Source: a virus. Taken from it: a DNA stretch of 64,000 nucleotides. Shown in pieces: positions 5,536 through 23,424 of the stretch (within the stretch, counting starts at the first letter, position 1; each line of letters starts with the position of its first letter). Under the pieces are notes generated by a model. The model worked only from the letters and a program-made list of their open reading frames with translations. It did no database searches and was not told the DNA's origin. The position numbers and the translations under genes are program-made. The stretch is taken from positions 166,512 to 230,511 of IMG/VR virus record IMGVR_UViG_3300029922_000001. One strand, written 5' to 3'.

Positions 5536-5606
5536 GGGGATGTAGCTCGACGGTCGAGTTAGAGCCTTTTAAGCTCAAGGCGTGGGTTCGATTCCCTCCG
5601 TCCTCA
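5536..5606 (+). tRNA. tRNA-Lys (UUU)
   Basis: Full cloverleaf of 71 nt without encoded CCA. The acceptor GGGGATG pairs with CGTCCTC with two wobbles, and the discriminator is A (5606). The D stem is GCTC/GAGT. The anticodon loop CTTTTAA gives anticodon TTT; its stem AGAGC/GCTCA has four pairs and a terminal A-A mismatch. The T arm GTGGG-TTCGATT-CCCTC has one T-T mismatch. It reads AAA and AAG. It is the first tRNA after the promoter and is followed by CCGAGA. Confidence 0.85.
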
Positions 5607-5616
5607 CCGAGAATAT

Positions 5617-5687
5617 GGGAAGTTAGTTCAATGGTAGAGCGGGAGAATCTAAATCTCCTAATGAGGGTTCGATTCCCTCACTTCCCA
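5617..5687 (+). tRNA. Amber suppressor tRNA (anticodon CUA)
   Basis: Clean cloverleaf of 71 nt: a perfect acceptor GGGAAGT/ACTTCCC, D stem GTTC/GAGC, a perfect five-pair anticodon stem GGAGA/TCTCC around the seven-base loop ATCTAAA, and a perfect T stem GAGGG/CCCTC with loop TTCGATT. Positions 34-36 are CTA, which reads the UAG stop codon. The discriminator is A; the amino acid it carries cannot be told from sequence. UAG terminates only two of 57 complete genes that I call here (60475-60669 and 62891-63472), so the phage tolerates UAG reading. Confidence 0.9.
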
Positions 5688-5700
5688 CCGAGATAAATAT

Positions 5701-5773
5701 GGGAATAAAGCATAAAGGGTGATGCAGTTGGCTCTTAACCTTCAGAACCTGGGCTCGACCCCCGGTGTTCCCA
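5701..5773 (+). tRNA. Atypical tRNA-Lys (CUU) with mismatched anticodon stem
   Basis: The acceptor GGGAATA/TGTTCCC, D stem GCAT/ATGC and T stem CTGGG/CCCGG are sound, with discriminator A. At standard positions the anticodon arm is GTTGG-CTCTTAA-CCTTC, giving anticodon CTT, but with two adjacent U-U oppositions in the stem. The T loop is CTCGACC rather than TTCGANN. It may be a functional variant, a decaying gene or one shaped to escape anticodon nucleases. Lysine identity is probable but less certain than for its neighbours. Confidence 0.65.
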
Positions 5774-5783
5774 CGAGAAATAT

Positions 5784-5856
5784 GGGGATATAACTCAATT
5801 GGTAGAGTGGCAGACTCTTAATCTGTAAGTTTGGGGTTCAAGTCCCCATGTCCCTA
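5784..5856 (+). tRNA. tRNA-Lys (CUU)
   Basis: 73-nt cloverleaf: acceptor GGGGATA/TGTCCCT, D stem ACTC/GAGT, anticodon arm GCAGA-CTCTTAA-TCTGT with anticodon CTT (codon AAG), T arm TGGGG-TTCAAGT-CCCCA, discriminator A at 5856. The CGAGA trailer follows directly. Confidence 0.88.
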
Positions 5857-5865
5857 CGAGAGCAA

Positions 5866-6190
5866 TTTGAATTTTGGGAAGTTGGCTTAGAAACAGCTAT
5901 CTTATAATGAGTGTCAAGTGGAATGCATCAGGACGAATATAGGTATGAGAAATCTGAATAATCTATCGTGCGCGGTAGATTAATACTGAAATTCGGTTGG
6001 TACTGATGTCGTGTCTCAGCTATCCCAGCATGAGGACGTAGAACCACAGGGGAAGGACAAGTGCAGTATTAATAATATGTTTGGTAGGCGAAGCTACCGA
6101 ACTAAGTAGAGGAAGGTAAGGGATAGGATATTCTACAATGTTATTAATGACCCTTAGAGACTTTGGCGTAGTAGCACACCAAAATTCAAA
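5866..6190 (+). ncRNA. Structured RNA mimicking the 23S GTPase-associated centre
   Basis: Coding potential is absent. The ends TTTGAATTTTGG (5866-5877) and CCAAAATTCAAA (6179-6190) are perfectly complementary over 12 bp. Directly inside, 5878-5903 reads like 23S rRNA helix 43: GUUGGCUUAGAAACAGC keeps the E. coli loop UUAGAA, the same U-U mismatch (5882/5900) and nine-step stem, with a compensatory change (5880/5902). Near the 3' end, 6166-6179 (GCGUAGUAGCACAC) matches helix 44 (GCGUAAUAGCUCAC). Equivalents of A1067 (5889) and A1095 (6170) are kept. About 260 nt lie between them, with hairpins at 5959-5980, 6009-6043 and 6080-6099, and an 11-bp helix joining about 6067-6077 and 6138-6148. Loop ATCCC (about 6022-6026) could pair with GGGAT (6120-6124). 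It lies between tRNAs 4 and 5 and has the same CGAGA trailer (6192-6196). The rRNA comparison is from memory. Confidence 0.8.
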
Positions 6191-6201
6191 ACGAGATGTA
6201 A

Positions 6202-6297
6202 GGGGGTATAGCTTAGTGGTTAAAGCTGGAGACTTTTGGAGTATTTCATGGAATATTGCAAAATCTCTAGACTAGGGTTCGATTCCCTGTGCCCCTA
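6202..6297 (+). tRNA. tRNA with 24-nt insertion in the anticodon loop, probably Lys (UUU)
   Basis: Acceptor GGGGGTA/TGCCCCT, D stem GCTT/AAGC and T arm TAGGG-TTCGATT-CCCTG are tRNA-like, with discriminator A. Between the anticodon stem halves GGAGA and TCTCT lie 31 nt instead of 7. The insert forms its own helix: TTTTG pairs with CAAAA, then AGTATTT with GAATATT, capped by CATG. Removing 24 nt can leave the loop CTTTTAA, identical to that of the tRNA-Lys(UUU) at 5536. It may be an intron-bearing tRNA, a tRNA with an extended arm that cannot decode, or a decoy. Confidence 0.7.
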
Positions 6298-6335
6298 CCG
6301 AGATTAAGACAAGTTTTATATGTATAAACACAAGT

Positions 6336-21585: not shown

Positions 21586-23424
21586 TTGAATCCTAATGAA
21601 TTTGTGATTTTCCAAACTCCTAAAAAGGCAGAAGAAATTGTAACTTCTAAAGTGTATCATCATTTTGATGGATTTCTTTATGAAGTTGCGGCTACCACAG
21701 ATACATTTATGGGTATTAAGCCTAAAAACATTGAACAAGAATGCGCAATGCAATTGTTAATTGATCAAAGAATCCACATGGTTTGTTTGTCAGGAAAAGC
21801 AGGTTCAGGAAAAGCACAACCTCTATATTCTCAGGTTTTAACTCCAAGTGGATACGTTGAAATGGGTGATTTAAATAAAGGAGATTTTGTAATTGGTGAC
21901 GATGGTTTACCTGCTGAAGTTTTAGATATTTACCCACAGGGTAAAAAAGATATTTATAGAGTTTATTTTTCAGATGGCTCTTTTACAGATTCTTGTGATG
22001 AACACATTTGGTCCGTAAAAGATGAGCAGGATAGAAATTATAAAAGAGAATATCGTGATTTAGAGCTTAAAGAAATAATGAAAAAAATTAAAGGTCATGA
22101 TGGTAGAAAAAACTATTCCATACCATTAGTGAAACCTGTTATTTTTGATGAAAAACAGCATGTAATAGATCCTTATTTGTTTGGGGTTTTATTGGGTGAT
22201 GGTTGCATGAAGTTTAATGGTGTTTATTTATCCACTTCTGATAGTGAAATTTTAGAAAGTTTTAAACACTTATTGCCAAAAAACTATTATCTTCAACACT
22301 CTGATAAATATGATTATAGAATTAATAACATAAAAACACCTGGAGTTAAACAGGAAAACGTTATACAGCAAGAAATTATTAGACTTAATTTAAAAGGATC
22401 TTCTTCTATTGATAAATTTATCCCTAATGAATATAAGTTCGATTCTGTAGAAAACAGAATTAAACTACTGCAAGGACTAATGGATTCTGATGGTACTTGT
22501 GATAAATCTGGTCAGAGTATAATCTTTACAACAGTATCTTCTAGATTAGCAGAAGATATGGAGTTTATTGTCAATAGTTTGGGTGGTGTTATTAAAAGCA
22601 CCAATCAATATAAAAAATACAAATATAAAGGTGAAATGAAAATTGGTAAAAAATCTCATATATTAACTATAAGCTTGCCGATAGATATCAGTCCATTCAG
22701 ACTTAGTAGAAAAAATAATCTTTATATTAATAAATCTAAATATTTACCTTCAAGATATATTACCGATGTTGAATTTATTGGAAACATAGATTGCCAATGT
22801 ATTTATGTTAATAACGAAAGTCATAGATATGTTACAGATAATTTCATTGTTACTCATAATACAATTCTTGCTCTAGCTGCTGCAATGGATCAAATAAACG
22901 CTGGTGTCTTTAACAAAATAATTGTTATTAAACCAATTGTTCCAGTTGGTGGTAAAGATATTGGTGCTTTACCTGGTGATAAGTTTGAAAAATTAGCACC
23001 TTGGCTTGGACCTATTAGCGACAACTTCGCTCAATTATGTGGTAATTTTGGTTTTCATGGTGCAGACACTTTTGAAGCAGCAGTTAAGGATGGTTTAATT
23101 GAAGTAGAAGCAATGGCTTATATTCAGGGACGATCTATTCCTAAAACCGTTATTCTTGTAGATGAAGCACAAAACTTAACTCCTAGAGAAGCTAGAAACA
23201 TTGTGGAACGTTGTGGAGAGGGTAGTAAAATCATCTTACTTGGTGACGTTTCTCAAATTGAAAACAATTATCTTGATAAAGAAAGTTGTGGTTTAGCTCA
23301 TGCTATGAATGGTACTAAAACACAAGATATTTGCGGTTGTGTAACATTAAAATCAGTTACTAGAAGTCCTCTTGCTGCTATTGCTAGTGAGATTTTCTCT
23401 TCTCCCGAAGCACAAGGTAGGTAA
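21586..23424 (+). CDS. phoH: PhoH-family ATPase precursor containing an intein (612 aa)
   Basis: After removal of the intein (residues 77-425) the protein is 263 residues: a PhoH P-loop ATPase with Walker A split exactly between K76 and T426 (GKAGSGK / TILALAAAMD), IVIKPIVPVGG, Walker B KTVILVDEAQNLTPREA, IILLGDVSQIEN and a C-terminal SVTRSPLAAIASEIF. PhoH proteins couple ATP hydrolysis to RNA unwinding; paired with a PIN domain they act as RNA helicase-nucleases. The only good start in frame is TTG 21586, without a Shine-Dalgarno; translation could depend on coupling or read-through from the PIN gene. Activity requires protein splicing, because the P-loop is interrupted. Confidence 0.88.
   Translation: MNPNEFVIFQTPKKAEEIVTSKVYHHFDGFLYEVAATTDTFMGIKPKNIEQECAMQLLIDQRIHMVCLSGKAGSGKAQPLYSQVLTPSGYVEMGDLNKGDFVIGDDGLPAEVLDIYPQGKKDIYRVYFSDGSFTDSCDEHIWSVKDEQDRNYKREYRDLELKEIMKKIKGHDGRKNYSIPLVKPVIFDEKQHVIDPYLFGVLLGDGCMKFNGVYLSTSDSEILESFKHLLPKNYYLQHSDKYDYRINNIKTPGVKQENVIQQEIIRLNLKGSSSIDKFIPNEYKFDSVENRIKLLQGLMDSDGTCDKSGQSIIFTTVSSRLAEDMEFIVNSLGGVIKSTNQYKKYKYKGEMKIGKKSHILTISLPIDISPFRLSRKNNLYINKSKYLPSRYITDVEFIGNIDCQCIYVNNESHRYVTDNFIVTHNTILALAAAMDQINAGVFNKIIVIKPIVPVGGKDIGALPGDKFEKLAPWLGPISDNFAQLCGNFGFHGADTFEAAVKDGLIEVEAMAYIQGRSIPKTVILVDEAQNLTPREARNIVERCGEGSKIILLGDVSQIENNYLDKESCGLAHAMNGTKTQDICGCVTLKSVTRSPLAAIASEIFSSPEAQGR
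21814..22860 (+). mobile_element. Class 3 intein with LAGLIDADG homing endonuclease
   Basis: 349 residues inserted in the PhoH P-loop. It begins with Ala instead of Cys or Ser (AQPLYSQVLTPSGYVEMGD) and ends FIVTHN before Thr. The block B segment is CDEHIW with His140 and Trp142 (precursor numbering); block F is CIYVNNESHRYVTDNFIVTHN with Cys405. Trp in block B, Cys in block F and Thr at +1 are the WCT triad of class 3 inteins, which start splicing from the internal Cys. Between the splicing blocks are two LAGLIDADG-type motifs (LFGVLLGDGC and LLQGLMDSDGT), so the homing nuclease looks intact. Confidence 0.9.

Follow-up and report, generated by a model that had tools for sequence, protein, structure and literature searches.

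At least five tRNA genes of one phage (Lys, Gly, Cys, Thr and Leu) carry hairpins of 17 to 31 nt in the anticodon loop, one of them within the window (the whole stretch of 64,000 nt analysed here, bases 166512 to 230511 of a 441,498-bp virus record). Hairpins of this type are inserted between nucleotides 36 and 37 (35 and 36 in Cys) of otherwise intact tRNA genes for several isoacceptors in unrelated phages, and the ends of the inserts are complementary to the anticodon. We consider it probable, at roughly 60%, that these are hairpin tRNA introns, which a staggered double-strand cut would release before an RNA ligase of the phage seals the exons, a reading drawn from gene sequence and predicted folding.

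The window gene (positions 6202 to 6297, plus strand) was called as a tRNA by both ARAGORN and Rfam model RF00005, the latter at 55.4 bits (E = 2.2e-10, against a cut-off of 29), indicating a complete cloverleaf. Its 5′ exon (nt 1 to 36 of the predicted tRNA-Lys(UUU), positions 6202 to 6237, from RF00005, ARAGORN and the fold) holds the acceptor, the D arm, the 5′ half of the anticodon stem and loop nucleotides 32 to 36 (CTTTT); its 3′ exon (6262 to 6297, from sequence, RF00005 and comparison of trailers) opens with A37 A38 and continues through the stem strand TCTCT, a 4-nt variable loop, the T arm, the acceptor and discriminator A73. Between nucleotides 36 and 37 lie 24 extra nt, the predicted intron GGAGTATTTCATGGAATATTGCAA (6238 to 6261), placed by the fold and by the excision that gives a 2-nt 3′ overhang and a 7-nt loop. 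The insert lengthens the anticodon stem into a 17-bp hairpin, in which GGAGA pairs with TCTCT, C32 is bulged, TTTTG pairs with CAAAA, and one G·G mismatch is followed by AGTATTT paired with GAATATT and a CATG loop; the arm folds at −36.1 kcal/mol (z = −3.6), with an equal or better fold in 0 of 200 shuffles. The usual 7-nt anticodon loop is absent, its place being taken by 31 nt folded as a hairpin, and 7 nt are reached only after removal of 24. Taking out 6238 to 6261 yields CTTTTAA, the loop of an intact tRNA-Lys(UUU) at 5536, and if this is assumed to be the mature loop the boundaries of the insert are unique (U36|G and A|A37). The original prediction, made from the letters alone, had described the 24-nt hairpin in the anticodon loop, the arms of the extended stem with loss of the normal loop, and the restoration of CTTTTAA, and each of these was confirmed.

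The ARAGORN label for this gene, Gln(TTG), was rejected as an artifact of the insert, and ARAGORN labels were wrong for four of the five interrupted tRNAs of the phage. Nearest-neighbor tRNAs give no isotype information for the window tRNA body; the predicted Lys identity rests on the class I shape, which rules out the Leu options, together with the overhang rule set out below. BLAST of the joined exons returned only distant tRNAs (about 75%), so that no close uninterrupted copy of the kind that the prediction took as a mark of a dead gene came to light.

The interrupted tRNA is the final gene of an array at 5536 to 6299 whose other members, all on the plus strand, are the intact tRNA-Lys(UUU) (5536 to 5608), an intact tRNA with the amber anticodon CUA (5617 to 5689) and an intact tRNA-Lys(CUU) (5784 to 5857), each found by ARAGORN and Rfam, and a further tRNA (5701 to 5773) scored at 45 bits by Rfam and not called by ARAGORN. 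A trailer, (C)CGAGA, follows nearly every tRNA gene of the phage, interrupted or intact (CCGAGA at 6298 to 6303 in the window gene), and is likely a processing signal; because the interrupted tRNAs share the CGAG(A) trailer of the intact ones, they sit in the same processing units. The phage has a second CUA-anticodon tRNA (genome positions 353602 to 353673), making two amber suppressors, and TAG is the stop in 37 of its 448 ORFs (read with code 11). Window positions 5868 to 6190 hold a structured noncoding RNA of about 320 nt with paired ends GAATTTTGG/CCAAAATTC (z = −2.5), for which no Rfam family was found. It contains GTTGGCTTAGAAACAGCTATC, with 19/21 identity to the L11-binding GTPase-center loop of bacterial 23S rRNA (best match on the other genome strand, 15/21), and the RNA resembles an rRNA mimic adjoining the tRNAs. 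Farther along the window, a single ORF (21586 to 23424) matches a terminase ATPase and PhoH with LAGLIDADG_3 in between, and is possibly an intein or a fusion.

A tRNA scan of the complete 441-kb record, beyond the window, placed the other interrupted tRNAs, of which the original prediction makes no mention, on the minus strand at genome positions c245888-245993 (31-nt hairpin), c251433-251524 (17 nt), c253296-253394 (18 nt) and c275381-275484 (18 nt). A further candidate (389592-389681) has a 14-nt insert in a perfect helix and restores no sensible loop, and a tRNA-like gene at c247524-247620 (U73, CCGAG trailer) has an ambiguous fold, the repeated TTCC of its long hairpin arm permitting two registers; a 265-nt “tRNA-Pro” call at 388257 was not accepted as a tRNA. 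The insert sequences are mutually unrelated, and at the window gene and those other interrupted tRNAs that score above the Rfam gathering threshold, tRNA is the only family assigned. Single-protein searches (RNase H, MCP) turned up no close relative of the phage, the matches being at most phage G-like proteins at about 28%. The record also encodes a tmRNA (293574 to 293927; L015 3574-3927), and this indicates a bacterial host; its tag, GKSYAYVG, is unusual, without the customary ALAA end.

Although their sequences differ, the five clear cases have a common anatomy. All five keep Y32-U33 and A37-A38 and break at nucleotides 36/37 (35/36 in Cys); each arm has a normal 5-bp anticodon stem, then a single nucleotide left unpaired in the 5′ strand (nt 32 or 34), an exon-intron helix and an apical hairpin beyond it. 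The last dinucleotide of the intron is the reverse complement of the final two bases of the 5′ exon in 5/5, though the anticodons differ (intron end/exon end: AA/UU, GG/CC, GC/GC, AC/GU and CU/AG), and a G·G mismatch lies at intron positions +2/−4, one pair past the exon-intron pairs, in three of the five (window, Gly and Thr). From these cases we derived a rule, later applied elsewhere: among the excisions that leave a 7-nt loop, the one giving a 2-nt 3′ overhang is chosen, base pairs being counted on both sides. Exactly one excision per arm satisfies it, giving Lys(UUU), Gly(GCC), Cys(GCA), Thr(UGU) and Leu(UAG). The odd loop length of 7 nt allows a 2-nt overhang only if one side carries a single unpaired base, which the conserved 5′ bulge provides. 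Assuming one break position throughout, whether 36/37 or 35/36, does not work for some isotypes, whereas the choice of a 2-nt overhang fits all five. The tRNA bodies agree with the predicted anticodons for Gly (8 of the 15 nearest tRNAs are Gly; U73), Thr (5 of 15; U73) and Leu (class II variable arm, A73 and a location within a Leu tRNA cluster), and the restored Gly loop, UUGCCAA, is that of ordinary bacterial tRNA-Gly(GCC).

The original prediction had proposed looking for the same insert in related phages; the exact window insert patterns matched no other viral contig, but hairpins of the same type were found elsewhere. A generic pattern, in which the D and T arms of a tRNA lie 14 to 44 nt too far apart, matched at least 120 viral contigs against a chance expectation, by our own estimate, of <1, and 87 of 116 distinct matches among those listed had at least six acceptor pairs, although the set is mixed, comprising several kinds of expanded anticodon arm and some adjacent tRNA pairs. 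Window-type cases are tRNA-Thr(UGU) on an 89-kb contig (L223), an 81-kb contig (L237) and a 342-kb contig (L130), tRNA-Gly(GCC) in the same phage as L223 (L260), and tRNA-Lys(UUU) and tRNA-Lys(CUU) on one 99-kb contig (L261/L114). When L223 and L237 are aligned with the uninterrupted tRNA-Thr of Cronobacter phage CR9, their inserts of 27 and 28 nt fall exactly at 36/37 with no ambiguity, and L237 matches intact phage tRNAs by BLAST only as far as nucleotide 36; these two are thus insertions into normal tRNAs, at a point fixed independently of the overhang rule. L237 was retrieved with a pattern that already required both G's of the G·G mismatch. The rule is obeyed by L223, L130, L114, L125, L237 and L261, and roughly by L260. 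It is not obeyed by the candidate at genome position 389592 or by L116, L152, L198, L201 and L206, and in L259 it leads to a conflicting identity; the six L cases are of other kinds or unclear. Among about 85,000 prokaryote genomes, matches to the window-class pattern were confined to ten archaeal contigs, where the introns look like ordinary archaeal ones; no bacterium matched.

On the reading that the 24-nt insert belongs to a family of hairpin tRNA introns with at least five members in the phage and relatives in others, a nuclease would cut with a stagger across the helix, giving a 2-nt 3′ overhang and leaving 3′-OH and 5′-phosphate ends. An ATP-dependent RNA ligase of the phage would then join nucleotide 36 to 37 (35 to 36 in Cys), so that a tRNA with the usual 7-nt loop, able to decode, would result (tRNA-Lys(UUU) in the window). 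Cutting might be done by host RNase III or Mini-III, or by an HNH-RNA ligase fusion of the phage, and sealing by that fusion, a T4 Rnl1-like ligase or a T4 Rnl2-like ligase; all these assignments are speculative, as is the possible benefit that the precursor would hide its anticodon loop from anticodon nucleases. Helices of 14 to 17 bp are short for bacterial RNase III, and the phage encodes no RNase III. We advance only tentatively, as a real possibility short of an expectation, the wider proposal that bacterial viruses possess a protein-based tRNA splicing of their own, in which anticodon-pairing hairpins would be excised by a staggered cut and the ends joined by an ATP-dependent phage ligase, possibly a single bifunctional HNH-RNA ligase, with the tRNA hidden from anticodon nucleases until mature.

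A search of the phage for an RNA ligase or splicing endonuclease, also suggested by the original prediction, succeeded for the ligase only. The phage encodes five ATP-dependent RNA ligases, four of PF09414 (one HNH fusion, one with a PHA02142 OB domain, one short and one related to RNA ligase 2, resembling phage RNA ligase 2 proteins over its length) and one Rnl1-type of PF09511 (genome 402770-403822), which with a T4-type PNKP (HAD_PNKP+AAA_33; 287883-288761) makes up the T4-type RNA repair pair. Neither RtcB (PF01139) nor an EndA-type endonuclease (PF01974) was found in the phage genome; RtcB was absent from the ten other records searched, and the L114 contig gave no PF09414, PF09511 or RtcB match. 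The L223 phage has a 363-amino-acid HNH-RNA ligase that shares 41% identity with the window-phage protein across 331 residues, and the L237 phage a 212-amino-acid ligase of the same family (41% identity in the ligase domain); second ligase-like matches in both were set aside as NAD-dependent DNA ligases. Only 33 of 50,697 phage records match the HNH-RNA ligase of the window phage. Many phages with HNH-ligases nonetheless have no such introns, as judged from the parts examined (in LR745208, for instance, the parts examined hold no hairpin tRNAs), and large phages often have RNA ligases, making the association with hairpin tRNAs suggestive, not proof. HNH-Rnl2 fusions of jumbo phages, of the same HNH + PF09414 family as in the window and L223 phages, are already known, the published guess being DNA attack plus RNA repair (PMC7824862); no proposed link to tRNA introns was found in the accessible literature.

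T4-type tRNA repair is the nearest known enzymology. Sealing the anticodon-loop break left by PrrC in tRNA-Lys is the same chemistry, and its PNKP and Rnl1 have counterparts in the phage, but T4 repair restores an existing tRNA, whereas splicing here would mean taking out an insert that the genome itself encodes. To our knowledge, tRNA introns in bacteria and their viruses are only large and self-splicing. Such introns are described as large self-splicing elements in the literature also (PMC4090602). Group I introns, like the window insert, lie in the anticodon loops of bacterial and phage tRNAs, but their core usually exceeds 140 nt, so that hairpins of 17 to 31 nt could hold none, and Rfam gave no group I hit. 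Archaeal and eukaryal introns, removed by EndA or TSEN with RtcB or Trl1, are closer in form: likewise small, in the anticodon loop and paired to the anticodon region, with a dependence on proteins and joining by an RNA ligase that we propose for the phage too. That the inserts are themselves introns of this kind, cut by the splicing endonuclease and sealed by RtcB, is already contradicted and hardly credible, even though they lengthen the anticodon stem and are of fitting size (archaeal introns typically have 12 to 25 nt, PMC4090602), and the window-class pattern also matches archaeal introns. The two 3-nt bulges and 4-bp helix of a bulge-helix-bulge, or its hBH/HBh′ variants, are missing; there is one single-nucleotide bulge and then a continuous helix in three arms (own1, own4 and own5), the other two being similar. 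The break is at 36/37 (unambiguously so in L223 and L237 against CR9) or 35/36 instead of the canonical 37/38, PF01974 and RtcB are absent from the phage, the virus is bacterial by its tmRNA, and the predicted ends are 3′-OH and 5′-phosphate.

The main rival to splicing, which we regard as unlikely but worth weighing, is the bait proposed in the original prediction: a nondecoding decoy, in which the unspliced tRNA with its extended arm titrates anticodon nucleases, retron-type effectors or other tRNA-binding defenses. Intact copies of three of the five isotypes (Lys, Cys and Thr) in the phage speak for it, since splicing is not obviously needed for those three, as does the retention of a complete cloverleaf and trailer, and phage tRNAs that evade or offset tRNA-targeting defenses are documented. 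The nearest functional ideas are those of phage tRNAs with mutated loops that evade anticodon nucleases (PMC10264068), where base changes keep a 7-nt loop and nothing is inserted, and of phage tRNAs that counter retrons (PMC11555353). A decoy, however, needs no match of the hidden anticodon to the tRNA body, nor intact Y32-U33 and A37-A38, insertion exactly at 36/37 or intron ends complementary to the anticodon, and known anticodon nucleases read the loop that the interrupted tRNAs lack. The small intron dependent on a protein splicing system, the other idea of the prediction, is better supported, by the exact placement of the inserts in otherwise intact tRNAs, the fitting mature loops, and the five ligases and PNKP, while the splicing itself is our interpretation of these features. 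The aminoacyl-tRNA synthetases for Lys, Gly, Cys and Thr recognize the anticodon. This weighs against an improbable third account, that the unspliced tRNA is charged and used outside decoding (e.g., as amino-acid donor, in priming or in regulation), for which the intact acceptor, D and T arms and the CCA encoded by many interrupted phage tRNAs could be cited: the anticodon such synthetases must read is paired and split, and nothing in this account explains why five unrelated hairpins share one junction. Less credible still are inert insertions or dying genes, in which short palindromes landed in tRNA loops and were never removed; the candidate at 389592, L198 and L217, which restore no sensible loop, could be of this sort, but every other tRNA feature is intact, intron ends covary with the exon, and Thr(UGU), Gly(GCC) and Lys(UUU) are interrupted at the same place in unrelated phages.

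RNA splicing of the kind favored here, by removal of a protein-cut hairpin, is not known in bacteria or their viruses. The open-licence literature yielded no account of short hairpin introns in phage tRNAs, a negative that is weak evidence of absence, and the huge-phage paper does not mention introns. If real, hairpin introns of 17 to 31 nt in phage tRNAs would add a third mode of tRNA splicing, supply a function for the many huge-phage RNA ligases now read only as repair enzymes, and suggest a way of hiding the anticodon from host nucleases. Wherever genes of this sort are annotated, the tRNA counts and anticodon assignments given for phages are in error.

Several other expanded anticodon arms were seen among viral tRNAs. 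A second insert family of about 42 to 46 nt (L182 2569-3136, L196 276-792, L165, L168, L175, L179 and L181) lies within the anticodon stem, on its 5′ strand following CG (at about 28/29 or 29/30), with the shared motif AAATG-hairpin-C(T)AACAGCAA, and is carried by several tandem tRNAs per phage. The sole real case from a Lys-specific pattern (L230, c4652-4771) was rejected as a window-type relative, being of a different kind: a tRNA-Lys(UUU) whose anticodon loop is split, precisely between 36 and 37, by an entire minihelix of acceptor and T arm with ACCA at its end. The arrangement resembles a mini-tRNA nested in a tRNA, and RNase P and a 3′ nuclease could release the insert. Inserts possibly like it occur in the tRNA-Asn of Salicola phage SCTP-2 (L072 8729-8850) and in L238/L242. 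In seven contigs (L128, L172, L200, L207, L215, L222 and L226) a tRNA-like gene has TCAYGGTGAAGGRCCAAAnnGC replacing the normal anticodon arm, and in LR756508 (L052 12080-12730) neighboring tRNA-Lys and tRNA-Arg genes have anticodon-loop introns of 193 and 175 nt, which are group I-like by size alone.
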